From positions 1 to 55,390 of the IMG/VR virus record IMGVR_UViG_3300030329_001437: DNA of 55,390 bases; one strand, 5' to 3'. The notes under the pieces were generated by a model. The model had not been told where the DNA came from. It made no database searches and saw nothing but the letters and a program-made list of their open reading frames with translations. The translations under genes and the position numbers were made by a program. Shown one piece after another: positions 21,660 to 40,721 of the stretch (position 1 is the stretch's first letter; each line of letters opens with the position of its first letter). This DNA is from a virus.

Positions 21660-23183
21660 ATGTCATTACAAGAAGAGTTTGCCCACCGTTTCGCGGGGTT
21701 GAGACACGGTCATAGTGTCTTTACCCCGACGAAAGAAAAACGGGAAGATGGCAAAGCGAAAGGAAAATATGTAACAATATCAAAAACTCTAAGCCAAAAA
21801 GAACTAGAAGACGTTTGGCTACAGCACCTGAAAGGTGAAAAAGGTCTCGGTATAGTACCGATTGACGAAGATAACAACTGCATTTGGGGATCTATTGATA
21901 TCGATGAGTTTTCAGTAGATCTGAAGGGGTTAGCTAAGAAGCTAAAGAAATTCAAATTACCTTTGGTCGTGTGTCGATCAAAAAGTGGAGGAGCACATTT
22001 ATTTCTATTTGTGTTCGACCCAGTTCCTGCCTCTACGATGCAACGAAAACTTAGACAAGTAGCGTCTGCTATTGGGTTTGGTCAGTCTGAGATTTTTCCT
22101 AAACAAACTAAGCTCTTATTAGAGCGAGGGGATAGGGGAAGTTCTCTGAATATGCCTTATTTTGGCGGGGAGAACTCTACTGGTTACGGCTTCGGCCCGA
22201 CTGGTAAAGTTCTCAGCCCAAAAGAATTCCTAGAGTATGTAGAGACACTTGTTCTAACTGAAGAAGAGTTAGAAAAACTAGAAGTGACTCCTATATTAGA
22301 GGACGCTGAGTGGTTAGATCAAGCTCCCCCTTGTTTAGAGCATCTTATAGCTCAGGGGTTTCCGAAAGGAATGCGAAACTCAGGACTCTTTAACGTAGGA
22401 GTTTTTCTACGAAAGAAGTTTCCAGATGACTGGGAGAGTCGAGTAGAGCAGGCTAACCACAAACACTTCTCTCCTCCTTTGAGTGCGCAAGAAGTATTGA
22501 CGGTTACGAAACAGGTTCAGAAGAAAGATTATTTCTATAAATGTAACGATCAGCCGATAGCAGGGCATTGTAACAGCCCTCTATGTAGAACTCGTAAATT
22601 CGGTATAGGAGCTTCGGGCGGCACTCCTCTGTTCAGTAATCTAACTAAACAGAATAGTGACCCTCCTATCTGGTTCTTAGATGTAGAAGGTGGACGACTA
22701 GAGTTAGAAACTGAAGAACTGCTGAACCAGAATAGGTTTCAGAGAAAGTGTATGGATAGCCTCAATATTATTCCTCAGAAGGTAAGGGATAATGTCTGGC
22801 GTCAGATTATACAACAGCTCCTGGATACTTTGACTATCATCGAAGTTCCTAAAGACGCATCAACTGAGGGGCATTTCAACGAATTATTAGAGACGTTTTG
22901 TACTGAACGTCCTGCTAGAGAACGTGACGAGTTACTATTAGGAAAGCCGTGGTCAGACAAGGATAGAACATATTTTAGACTAGGCGATCTGATGGACTAC
23001 TTACATCGCAAGAACTTCAGAGACTACCCTAGAAATAAACTTACAGCTAAGTTGAGAAATATGGGAGGAGATTCTTATTTCTTTAATATAAAAGGGAAAG
23101 GTGCGAATGTGTGGCATATACCACAGTTTGAAGCTCAAACAGAGTCACACAACTTACCTGATTTCGACGACAGCGTACTGTAG
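21660..23183 (+). CDS. Archaeo-eukaryotic-type primase (AEP), 507 aa
   Basis: Residues 70-180 carry the AEP motifs: motif I WGSIDIDEF with Asp80 and Asp82 for metal binding, motif II SKSGGAHLFLF with His113, and motif III region around EIFPKQTKL. It resembles the AEP domain of TOTE-type systems and phage primases. It makes RNA or DNA primers for lagging-strand synthesis. A CX-rich segment (CNDQPIAGHCNSPLCRTRK, residues ~295-315) looks like a zinc module. The C-terminal part is a helical domain. The helicase gene follows without gap. Confidence 0.82.
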   Translation: MSLQEEFAHRFAGLRHGHSVFTPTKEKREDGKAKGKYVTISKTLSQKELEDVWLQHLKGEKGLGIVPIDEDNNCIWGSIDIDEFSVDLKGLAKKLKKFKLPLVVCRSKSGGAHLFLFVFDPVPASTMQRKLRQVASAIGFGQSEIFPKQTKLLLERGDRGSSLNMPYFGGENSTGYGFGPTGKVLSPKEFLEYVETLVLTEEELEKLEVTPILEDAEWLDQAPPCLEHLIAQGFPKGMRNSGLFNVGVFLRKKFPDDWESRVEQANHKHFSPPLSAQEVLTVTKQVQKKDYFYKCNDQPIAGHCNSPLCRTRKFGIGASGGTPLFSNLTKQNSDPPIWFLDVEGGRLELETEELLNQNRFQRKCMDSLNIIPQKVRDNVWRQIIQQLLDTLTIIEVPKDASTEGHFNELLETFCTERPARERDELLLGKPWSDKDRTYFRLGDLMDYLHRKNFRDYPRNKLTAKLRNMGGDSYFFNIKGKGANVWHIPQFEAQTESHNLPDFDDSVL

Positions 23184-33101: not shown

Positions 33102-33107
33102 TGTTCT

Positions 33108-33162
33108 TAGTGCTTTACTTTCGTAACGTCCTACGTTACGCTAGTTGTTCCTACTTAGTAGG
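33108..33162 (+). promoter_or_regulatory. Promoter TTAGTGC-TTTACT-17-TACGCT plus leader hairpin
   Basis: TTAGTGC then TTTACT (33114-33119), 17-bp spacer, TACGCT (33137-33142). The spacer holds an inverted repeat GTAACG...CGTTAC (33123-33128, 33134-33139) that overlaps the -10 and could be an operator. A small hairpin CCTAC-TTA-GTAGG follows at 33150-33162. Confidence 0.78.
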
Positions 33163-33634: not shown

Positions 33635-33799
33635 ATGAGAAAAAGCACAAGTTGTCGGATTGACGCGGTTATAGAAGCAGGGGAGAGAACGAAAAACGCC
33701 AAGATGAAAAAATACTGGGCAGACGTAGAGTCCTACCTAAGAACAGGATATTGGAGACGCGACGAAGTAGTAGGGACTCGAAGAGCAGGTCGACTATGA
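33635..33799 (+). CDS. Small basic protein, 54 aa
   Basis: ATG 33635 with CGGAGAA upstream. Lys/Arg-rich (MRKSTSCRID start, YWRRDEVVGTRRAGRL end), likely nucleic-acid or protein binding. Follows the UUCG hairpin and overlaps the next gene's start (ATGA). The longer upstream frame would begin inside the hairpin and is less likely. Confidence 0.55.
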   Translation: MRKSTSCRIDAVIEAGERTKNAKMKKYWADVESYLRTGYWRRDEVVGTRRAGRL

Positions 33800-34562: not shown

Positions 34563-34783
34563 AGAGAACAGAACAGGCGATTCGTGACTATATAGATCAG
34601 CATCAAGAGGAACTCAAACAACGAGTGATTAACATATTTATCGCAGAAATAGCAAACTCTGTGTTCTTTGCCGACCTACAAAACGTGACGATGCCCACAT
34701 GGTCGCACAAAGTACGCGACGATATAGAAGATTTAGTAAAAGAAGTTTTAGACTTTGACGAGGACCCCACGGTCTCGGCTTAG
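34559..34783 (+). CDS. Small helical protein, 74 aa
   Basis: ATG 34559 overlaps the previous stop (ATGA); an in-frame ATG at 34547 is an alternative. Helical, acidic C-terminus (LVKEVLDFDEDP). No domain known. Ends just before the next promoter. Confidence 0.55.
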   Translation: MKRTEQAIRDYIDQHQEELKQRVINIFIAEIANSVFFADLQNVTMPTWSHKVRDDIEDLVKEVLDFDEDPTVSA

Positions 34784-34840
34784 TGCTTTACTCTCGGGTA
34801 GTCCCTAAGTAAAGTATAAACTGGCGCGGCCTACGGGCCG
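34781..34840 (+). promoter_or_regulatory. Promoter TAGTGC-TTTACT-17-TAAAGT plus UACG-tetraloop hairpin
   Basis: TAGTGC (34781-34786), TTTACT (34787-34792), 17-bp spacer, TAAAGT (34810-34815). The leader hairpin CGGCC-TACG-GGCCG (34827-34840) has a stable UNCG-type tetraloop. AGAAAGGAG and ATG 34867 follow. Confidence 0.8.
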
Positions 34841-35813: not shown

Positions 35814-35826
35814 AAGGAAAATGAAA

Positions 35827-36096
35827 ATGGAAGAAGATCCTAACGGAAGATTTTTAGAACCAGTAGAACTGGAAAAATGCGTAATTTGTAAAGGTGGAAT
35901 CGAGCCTCACCGCAACAAAGAGGGCAAGATTATTTGGACTCACGGGCACCATGCCTTTCCAGTAGCGGAAGGACAGTGTTGTGACGACTGTCATAACACT
36001 TATGTTCTACCGAAAAGGTACGGTGATTCCAAAGCTCGATTTAAAGAGATACTAGTGTCACCTGATGCTCTTGTTATAGACTCAGACACATTGTAA
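35827..36096 (+). CDS. Putative zinc-binding (HNH-like or zinc finger) protein, 89 aa
   Basis: ATG 35827 is favoured over ATG 35821 because AAGGA is better spaced. Cys18-x2-Cys21 and Cys51-Cys52-x2-Cys55 with WTHGHHAFPVAEGQCC resemble a compact zinc finger; the His-rich middle is compatible with an HNH-type fold but catalytic spacing is not convincing. A nucleic acid-binding role is likely. Confidence 0.6.
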   Translation: MEEDPNGRFLEPVELEKCVICKGGIEPHRNKEGKIIWTHGHHAFPVAEGQCCDDCHNTYVLPKRYGDSKARFKEILVSPDALVIDSDTL

Positions 36097-36341
36097 AGAA
36101 GGATCGATGCATCATTGAAGCTGGCGAGTAGTAGCGTCTGTTGGGGATTCCTGCGGTTTATTCATAGCCGTTCTCACCACCTGACCACCGCAGTATGTTG
36201 GTCAAGGAGAAAAAGGAGCGATGAGGTGCGTCTGCATCGGGGAGTAGTTTTTGCGTTGCGTTTACTACTCTTGAATTTGACGTGAATCGCTCCGACTACT
36301 ACACTAGAAACCAGTTCTACTCGATAACTAAAGAGGTGAAG
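36097..36341 (+). ncRNA. Structured intergenic RNA candidate with pseudoknot and three-helix element
   Basis: 245 bp without a good coding frame. Element A: CTGCGGT (36151-36157) pairs with ACCGCAG (36187-36193), and TGACCA (36182-36187), lying inside its loop, pairs with TGGTCA (36199-36204), an H-type pseudoknot topology (the helices share one base). Element B: GGAGCGAT (36215-36222) pairs with ATCGCTCC (36286-36293), enclosing a second hairpin GAGTAGT (36242-36248)/ACTACTC (36264-36270). Two long perfect stems in one gap are unlikely to be accidental. No known RNA family recognised. Confidence 0.5.
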
Positions 36342-36524
36342 ATGAGTAGCGAAGAGATAAATAAACAGATCGAAGAGTTCCTCAAGAAGGGGGGATCGAT
36401 CGAAACAGTTCCCGCAGGAGCCAGTGCAGACAGGCCGCTGAGCGAGAAGAAAAAGTTATTTGGATTGTCTAGCAGACGACCAGGATTCGACAAGGAACGA
36501 CTGATATTAACACCGAAAGAATAA
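36342..36524 (+). CDS. Small protein, 60 aa
   Basis: ATG 36342 with AGAGGTGA upstream is preferred over a GTG start at 36282 that lies in the structured RNA element. Helical first part (SSEEINKQIEEFLKKGG) and a basic Ser/Arg tail. No known family. The tail-fibre-like fragment begins in its last codons. Confidence 0.55.
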   Translation: MSSEEINKQIEEFLKKGGSIETVPAGASADRPLSEKKKLFGLSSRRPGFDKERLILTPKE

Positions 36525-36577
36525 TAACTACAGGTACTCATAATACAGCTGTTGGGATTGCTACTAGAGCGTTGTGA
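36524..36577 (+). repeat. Displaced single unit of the tail-fibre 51-bp repeat
   Basis: In the frame starting at 36524 the DNA reads ITTGTHNTAVGIATRAL then TGA, the same consensus as the ~34 units of the tail-fibre gene at 1-1740. It sits after the stop of the 60-residue gene, in a different frame, and has no start codon of its own. It looks like a recombinational relic or misplaced copy; it is not a gene. Confidence 0.75.
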
Positions 36578-36624
36578 CCGACCGCCATATTATCGCGAAG
36601 GGTCGTTATGTCGCCGCGTGCTTT

Positions 36625-36687
36625 TAGTGCTTTACCCTCGGGTGGTCGCGGGTTACGCTAAACGTAGCCCCGCGCCTACGGGTGCGG
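36625..36687 (+). promoter_or_regulatory. Promoter TAGTGC-TTTACC-17-TACGCT plus UACG-tetraloop hairpin
   Basis: TAGTGC (36625-36630), TTTACC (36631-36636), 17-bp spacer, TACGCT (36654-36659). Leader hairpin CCGCGCC-TACG-GGTGCGG (36670-36687) has one G-U pair. An AGAAAGGAAG ribosome site leads to ATG 36717. Confidence 0.8.
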
Positions 36688-36716
36688 ATTGTTAGAAAGA
36701 TAGAAAGGAAGAATGA

Positions 36717-37088
36717 ATGAAAGAAAAGATACATTTAGTAGGAAAAGAGTTTGTTGACCATATAGTGGACGACAAATTCTGGATTTTAGAAGACCCCGAG
36801 TCTTGGCCTTGTTTAGAAACACCGAGGTTGTCAGAGGTAGCGAGACTTAATAGCGCAGAACTAGGACAGGAACCAGAAGAGTTCGTAATAGACCTAGCCA
36901 ACCATCCACAGATAACAGAAGTAGACCACTACAATTTCGGATGTATTGAGGTAGTCACTTTTAGATGGAACGACCCGCGAGATGGAGAGCTGTATTTTCC
37001 TGGAAAATACTATAAGTTCGATATCTGGAGGGGGCCAGCGACTAACTACGAAGCGAAACGCTGGACTGACCAAGACTACTCAGGATAG
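36717..37088 (+). CDS. Hypothetical early protein, 123 aa
   Basis: First gene of the operon behind the 36.6-kb promoter. Acidic, mixed alpha/beta, with a Tyr/Trp-rich second half (YNFGCIEVVTFRWND and LYFPGKYYKFDIWRG). No enzyme motif or membrane segment. Host-interaction candidate by context; function unknown. Confidence 0.65.
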   Translation: MKEKIHLVGKEFVDHIVDDKFWILEDPESWPCLETPRLSEVARLNSAELGQEPEEFVIDLANHPQITEVDHYNFGCIEVVTFRWNDPRDGELYFPGKYYKFDIWRGPATNYEAKRWTDQDYSG

Positions 37089-39903: not shown

Positions 39904-40344
39904 TTAAATAATCTTAACTAGGTATGCGTGACAGTGGCTGTCGTAGATTATTCCCGTCATTCGGGTACTACCCGTATCAGGGTCACTCCACATAACAATC
40001 TGCCACTCTCCTGGCTCACCGTCTTCGGATTCAAACCACTGGGTGACTGTTACCGTTTCAGTGGGAGGTATCATTTCATATAGTGGCTTAAAGCCCCTTT
40101 CAGCCAGTTCAATGGCGTGGCCCCAATGATCTATTCTAGTGCTCCCAGTAATCTCATCAGTAGGCACGTCAGTGGGATAGTCTAATTCTATCAACTTTAA
40201 CGACATAGTCTCTGGGCGAAGTGGGCTCATTCCGTCAATCGTATTTTCGGGGTTAGCCAAAATATCAATCAATTCCCTACTAAACGTAGCAGTCGTAGTA
40301 GGTCTTTCGGAAAATACTTCCATGGTTATATCTTTCAAATCCAT
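39904..40344 (-). CDS. Hypothetical protein, 146 aa
   Basis: Leftward, start at 40344 with AAAGGTAGAAAG upstream; first gene after the promoter at 40403-40438. Acidic, Thr-rich, mixed alpha/beta, with DYPTDVPTDEIT and a beta-rich C-terminal half (WQIVMWSDPDTGSTRMTG). Not recognised. Confidence 0.65.
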   Translation of the reverse strand: MDLKDITMEVFSERPTTTATFSRELIDILANPENTIDGMSPLRPETMSLKLIELDYPTDVPTDEITGSTRIDHWGHAIELAERGFKPLYEMIPPTETVTVTQWFESEDGEPGEWQIVMWSDPDTGSTRMTGIIYDSHCHAYLVKII

Positions 40345-40721
40345 CTTTCTACCTTTCTATCTTTCTAAGAATCCCGCCCGTAAAAAAGGCGGGGCCGGTT
40401 ATAGTATAAGTTACCATAATAACCATAGTAAAGGACTAAAAAGGTATTAGAAAGGAGCGGTTATTAGTCTATTTGAAAATAAAACTTTTTTTATTTTTTT
40501 CAGCAGAATTGACTAATAGAGTAATAGAAGTAATAGAATCGAGCTTAAAGTCTCGAGAACAGTGGATCTTGGTGAGTGACTAAAGTAATAGAAAAACTAT
40601 TAGTTATTACAAATGAAACAGAGAATAAGTAAGAGAGGGCGTGAGCGAAACATTTCGTTTTTTATATTTTATTTTCATTCTAATATATAGTTCACACATC
40701 GAAACACCTCGGAATTGCTGA
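40345..40721. other. AT-rich divergent intergenic region with TAATAGA repeats
   Basis: 377 bp between leftward genes and the small terminase. It holds the leftward promoter, poly-A/T tracts, and repeated AGTAATAGAA/TAATAGA motifs, including 40511-40534, the inverted counterpart of 19791-19814. A small hairpin CGAAA...TTTCG before a T-run lies near 40647-40665. I see no TTTACY promoter for the terminase gene here, so the late promoter may be of another kind. Confidence 0.6.
40403..40438 (-). promoter_or_regulatory. Leftward promoter TAGTCC-TTTACT-18-TATACT
   Basis: On the reverse strand TAGTCC (40438-40433), TTTACT (40432-40427), 18-bp spacer, TATACT (40408-40403). It drives the four leftward genes. 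Its leader contains a GC-rich hairpin (CCCGCC ... GGCGGG near 40376-40395), like the rightward leaders. Confidence 0.78.

Follow-up and report, generated by a model that had tools for sequence, protein, structure and literature searches.

A covarying, pseudoknotted RNA carried by many, mostly uncultured, phages

The phage genome fragment analyzed here (IMG/VR record IMGVR_UViG_3300030329_001437; its full stretch of 55,390 nucleotides is referred to as the window) encodes a structured RNA element of 199 nt on its plus strand, within the gap at 36097-36341. This element belongs to an RNA family that is carried by many, mostly uncultured, phages and that we rate as new and uncatalogued; the novelty lies in the family, and its mechanism may be of a known kind. 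We regard it as nearly certain that the conserved RNA structure is real. At the level of sequence, the comparison of homologs shows a predicted fold in which helix P1 closes a three-way junction with a variable arm (P2, joined by P3 in the window) and a conserved arm (P4), the latter running from P4a through a GAAGU internal loop to P4b. A pseudoknot (PK0) is predicted to link the strand just 5' of P1 with the P4 loop, and the junction is lined by near-invariant blocks that are predicted to be unpaired (Table 1).

Table 1. Features of the RNA element and its two neighboring genes in the window.
Feature	Position	Strand	Description
91-aa gene	35821..36096	+	Cysteine-pair (zinc-ribbon-like) protein; directly upstream of the RNA
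Whole RNA element	36105..36303	+	Pseudoknot strand, linker and P1-closed three-way junction; matched by model R1 by construction
PK0 5' strand	36105..36111	+	CGATGCA; complementary to 36233-36239
P1 5' strand	36128..36134	+	GTAGTAG; pairs with 36296-36302
Junction	36135..36138	+	CGTC; conserved, directly 3' of the P1 5' strand
P2 hairpin	36153..36171	+	GCGG...CCGT; lineage-variable arm
P3 hairpin	36182..36204	+	TGACCA (36182-36187), TGGTCA (36199-36204); window's sublineages only
Junction	36207..36214	+	GAGAAAAA; conserved, family form GAGAAATA
P4a 5' strand	36215..36222	+	GGAGCGAT; pairs with 36286-36293
P4b 5' strand	36228..36232	+	GCGTC; pairs with 36279-36283
PK0 3' strand	36233..36239	+	TGCATCG; located in the P4 loop
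P4c apical hairpin	36242..36270	+	GAGTAGT (36242-36248), ACTACTC (36264-36270); variable, missing in the smallest members
P4b 3' strand	36279..36283	+	GACGT; also in the RNAalifold structure of the close group
P4a 3' strand	36286..36293	+	ATCGCTCC; pairs with 36215-36222
P1 3' strand	36296..36302	+	CTACTAC; pairs with 36128-36134
60-aa gene	36342..36524	+	Encodes a SutA RNA-polymerase-binding domain; follows the RNA only in this lineage

The DNA polymerase of the window is closest to that of phage 023Pt_psg01 (54% identity), followed by those of DSL-LC04 and the Pelagibacter phages HTVC023P and HTVC027P (48-49%). Searches with the neighboring proteins yielded about a dozen close loci; when aligned, the gap and the 60-aa gene are conserved together even where the surrounding genes differ. 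RNAalifold of ten close sequences gives P1, P2, P3 and a long P4 arm. The covariance model of this close group (R1), run on loci fetched solely for encoding a polymerase homolog, matches 19 divergent members with E-values from 1e-6 to 1e-10, all sharing one position downstream of the polymerase. Conversely, two models made without the window type, of which R2 was derived from divergent members alone, match the window at 36124-36303 (E = 4e-10 for R2, 1.4e-11 to 5.7e-11 for R3), and R2 also adds two members with a third P1 sequence. The discovery is thus reciprocal, since the model of the window's lineage finds the others and the models of the others find the window.

Within the window's phage group the RNA occupies one syntenic place. 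It is present in all 29 polymerase contigs with more than 4.2 kb of sequence after the polymerase gene, 3.6-5.7 kb downstream of it, and nine of the 38 polymerase loci lack it because their contigs end too early. Pattern scans added further members, the later ones in other phages, so that at least three other phage types carry the RNA. In L133 and L144 its neighbor is a tyrosine integrase gene. The phages of L136 and L140/L142 encode a primase that, as tested for L140, shares about 28% identity with primases of the Pamexvirus type, and in L147 a DNA methylase is encoded nearby. One confident copy was found per genome searched. Reading of the sequences exposed other matches as chance (L021, L022, L025-L027, L032, L047-L052, L103, L106, L135, L137, L145 and L146). 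A blastn search of INPHARED with four members returned nothing or chance-level pieces only, an R3 scan of twelve whole cultured phage records gave no member, and none of 754 sampled genomes from two bacterial classes matched an exact pattern, which can miss divergent copies. Two loci deserve separate mention. In L009 (positions 1-283, IMGVR_UViG_3300030450_003761) the 3' end recurs as TTTGACGTGAATCGTTCCGACTATTACACTAG downstream of the complete element, an arrangement that resembles a scar left by recombination between two element versions. Phage 023Pt_psg01 (MW574966.1) has an unannotated gap of 408 bases about 3 kb downstream of its polymerase (L090:10194-10601); this gap gave no match to the RNA models and may hold another element.

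The structure itself is carried by compensatory changes. Across 24 distinct cores and 27 pairs, 95.8% of the base-pair cells are intact and 21 of the 27 pairs show double changes, spread over several separate lineages. The covariation score of 0.644 compares to 0.208 ± 0.016 in shuffles and is reached by 0 of 500 of them, a significance that the shuffles overstate because kinship lies outside the statistics, identical cores having been collapsed. Controls with slid partners score at most 0.122 for the same set of pairs, in which the P4b pairs were set by fixed offsets and not picked for pairing. Compensatory changes beyond both controls, in several lineages, are what identifies a structured RNA family, and covariation in homologs was among the checks by which the earlier note proposed to judge this region. 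P1 is paired in all distinct sequences, with variants such as CTGGTAG/CTACCAG, GCAGGAG/CTCCTGC, GCGGTAG/CTACCGC, GTAGCAG/CTGCTAC and CCGGCAG/CTGCCGG elsewhere, and P4a is likewise paired in 100% of them, five of its pairs showing double changes. In L133/L144, L136, L140/L142 and L147, both helices are fully paired with different letters. P4b is paired for 89%, with double changes at all five pairs, while P3 covaries within the close group (95.8% paired, two double-change pairs). Wherever P1 or P4a departs from Watson-Crick pairing, the plus strand shows G-U and never A-C, which identifies this strand as the functional RNA.

PK0 emerged when complementarity to the P4 loop was sought in the 60 upstream bases. 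All lineages preserve its complementarity at a constant position, whose end lies 11-13 nt upstream of the P1 domain (15 nt for L136 and L140), as illustrated by CGATGCA/TGCATCG in the window and by CGATGCG/TGCATCG, GGTGAGG/CCTCACC, GGTGGGG/CCCCACC, GGGGG/CCCCC, GGAGG/CCTCC and TCCGGAC/GTTCGGA in others; in L147, GTCCCT/AGGGAC was recognized by eye. In 27 of 30 sequences the best pairing found is at this place. Treated as a helix, PK0 is 91.7% paired, has double changes in 7 of 7 pairs and scores 0.827 against 0.239 ± 0.035 in shuffles, values that benefit somewhat from manual placement of the strands ahead of the count. The low slid controls (at most 0.247) and the fixed position nevertheless argue against this placement as the cause of the signal. 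PK0 supersedes another candidate pseudoknot, in which the P4 loop would pair with the G-run that follows GCGUCAG and which is only 70.5% paired, with a single double-change pair; the alternative CGATG/CATCG hairpin of the window has, by eye, no counterpart in other lineages.

Around this core the family varies considerably. Members measure 109-206 nt, the smallest natural ones spanning 109 nt (L147) and 118 nt (L068) from P1 to P1. GCGTC follows at the P1 exit in nearly all members, replaced by GCCTC in L058 and L077, and the second junction block is near-invariant in its family form across the other lineages. The P2 hairpin is invariant in the close group and substituted by other hairpins in relatives; the pairing of P4c is partly preserved through changes in the close group, and P4c is absent in L068. 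In L058:15575-15780 and L077:15481-15686 the P2 arm is AU-rich and greatly enlarged, and only 10 nt separate P1 from a start codon that has no evident ribosome site.

The earlier note, made on the window alone, had proposed a pseudoknotted, structured phage RNA in a gap without a plausible gene. Covariation confirms such an RNA, yet with a pseudoknot that differs from the proposed one. All pairings named in the note are present as written, but CTGCGGT/ACCGCAG (36151-36157/36187-36193) and TGACCA/TGGTCA cannot both form completely because A36187 is common to both. Of these helices, P3 and P4a are kept by compensatory changes, whereas CTGCGGT/ACCGCAG is not conserved: it shows zero double changes, scores no better than shuffles, is disrupted in L012-L014, three of the eight distinct sequences, and competes with the invariant P2 hairpin. 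The closing helix P1 and PK0 were absent from the proposal. The supposed excess of folding potential over other gaps is not supported by calculation, with an MFE z-score of -0.40 compared to -0.38 for the neighboring gap 36525-36716, and 73 of 200 shuffles folding at least as well. Since the folding energy is ordinary, the question needed settling by comparison; energy alone would have overlooked the element. Evolution as a coding frame, which would have spoken against an RNA, is not borne out: homologs differ in length by indels that would shift a reading frame, and several stops interrupt two of the window's three plus-strand frames.

A scan of the whole window against Rfam 15 at gathering cut-offs gave no matches; permissive scans of the window, L015, L012, L060, L075 and the divergent L150, L153, L154 and L155 gave scattered sub-threshold matches, none describing it. 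Among the titles and abstracts listed in literature searches, none describes the RNA family.

Plus-strand genes extend from about 19.9 to 38.9 kb, and the RNA lies late in this series. Neither a separate promoter nor a terminator was found around it in the window, which counts against a discrete RNA. The protein encoded directly downstream matches the SutA RNA-polymerase-binding domain (PF20661, 42.4 bits versus a cut-off of 29.3), and this gene adjoins the RNA in 10 of 10 close sequences, a pairing that is constant within the window's lineage. In most lineages, a homolog of the gene at 33751 precedes the RNA and the zinc-ribbon gene follows it, alone or within a longer protein; the homolog of the gene upstream of the RNA in the window is thus found downstream elsewhere. 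In the window's lineage the SutA-like gene comes after the RNA, with the zinc-ribbon gene upstream or several genes downstream, elsewhere a different gene of 147-206 aa follows, and in other phages an 88-aa HTH gene or an integrase. As the next gene differs between lineages, a regulator dedicated to the 60-residue gene, one of the two roles initially envisaged, is not supported; a phage small RNA, the other one, remains the best fit. Small phage proteins with a SutA-type motif are encoded at 36342-36524 and at L016:4977-5162, L046:3001-3078 and L140:41-253 (minus strand; 14.9 bits, below the cut-off). Several other features of the region were recorded. An 11-bp hairpin, AGTGTTGTGACGACTGTCATAACACT, flagged as terminator-like, lies inside the upstream zinc-ribbon-like gene (35975-36000). 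A recurrent, hairpin-rich intergenic sequence at 36623-36717 ends in a GAAAGGA-type ribosome site; its short repeats recur at 34780-34803 and 33104-33130 and, in reverse, at 40344-40378, and it has a sub-threshold Rfam match to Ms_IGR-2 (22.6 bits versus a cut-off of 45). The protein encoded at 21660-23183 carries an AEP-TOTE primase-type domain (50.1 bits versus a cut-off of 27).

Regarding function, we propose with about an even chance of being right that the element is a discrete, putative noncoding RNA of the replication operon. The RNA would be co-transcribed with the replication or early operon, would be stable or excised from the operon transcript, and would act as a discrete molecule whose partner is a protein, of phage or host, or another RNA, instead of tuning one downstream gene. 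That gene order varies while the RNA stays favors an RNA with its own task. The principal competitor, which we consider possible though considerably less probable, is a cis-acting leader (riboswitch-like, or a translational or mRNA-stability element) controlling the next gene or genes of the operon. Its intergenic place, the short distance of 10-55 nt to the following start codon in nearly all members, the constant association with the SutA-like gene within the lineage of the window and the aptamer-like look of a junction with near-invariant unpaired blocks and a pseudoknot would all suit a leader; however, such spacing is normal in tightly packed phage genomes, and no conserved alternative pairing that hides a Shine-Dalgarno sequence or forms a terminator was seen by eye. 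The constant downstream linkage of a riboswitch or gene-specific element is lacking, with at least four unrelated gene types following the RNA (SutA-like, zinc-ribbon, MKEYNFF family, HTH, integrase).

The SutA domain in the next gene of the window's lineage, together with the weak SutA-like match slightly further downstream in L140, also evokes a cis-acting antitermination RNA that modifies the transcribing polymerase, possibly with the SutA-like protein. Such a role is modeled by the put RNAs of phage HK022, structured phage RNAs that mediate processive antitermination. Our element resembles these in being a structured phage RNA, which in one lineage adjoins a gene encoding an RNAP-binding domain, but it forms a three-way junction with a pseudoknot and shows no detectable sequence relation to them. 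Its place late in the gene run instead of at the start, the lack of an adjoining SutA-like gene in most members and the absence of an Rfam match make this role unlikely. Cutting of the polycistronic transcript, by a self-cleaving ribozyme or through a processing signal, would agree with the compact pseudoknotted junction, its near-invariant unpaired blocks, the intercistronic location and the AU-rich sequence after the element in many members, but no Rfam ribozyme matches and the layout is unlike those of HDV and hammerhead ribozymes; we consider it very unlikely. Highly improbable is a DNA-level site (origin, packaging, recombination) or a missed small gene: although replication genes are near and an integrase lies beside the RNA in L133/L144, the G-U departures bespeak RNA pairing, and the out-of-frame lengths oppose a gene.

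Packaging RNAs of the phi29 type have a core of about 120 nt with a three-way junction and loop pairing, features that our element shares. The window phage, however, has a Terminase_6-type large terminase and not a phi29-type motor, and Rfam gives no match. GOLLD and ROOL are orphan structured RNAs that emerged from comparative genomics of bacteria, phages and metagenomes (PMC2864571, PMC12286853). The present RNA is, like them, a covariation-supported orphan in phage genomes, but with about 110-206 nt it is far smaller, differs in architecture and is without an Rfam match. In Pseudomonas SutA, the beta protrusion serves as the anchor point of the RNAP-binding domain (PMC9300723); the 60-aa neighbor has this domain above the Pfam cut-off, but is only 60 aa long, and an acidic N-terminal region as in SutA is not visible in its sequence.

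Returning to the proposed discrete RNA, there is a rather small chance that it represents an undescribed functional class, present once per genome in distantly related phages and acting in trans on host machinery during infection. A possible target would be, for example, RNA polymerase, which the SutA-like neighbor would also contact, and on the basis of their neighborhood a shared role of the RNA and this protein is possible. Few phage RNA families combine strong covariation with so nearly universal a place within a phage group, and most of those described still await a functional assignment. The present family is small, with clear boundaries and a compact natural form: in L068, P1 to P1 spans 118 nt, to which the 5' pseudoknot strand is added. 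Its covarying helices are ready-made mutation tests, which make both structure and function directly testable.
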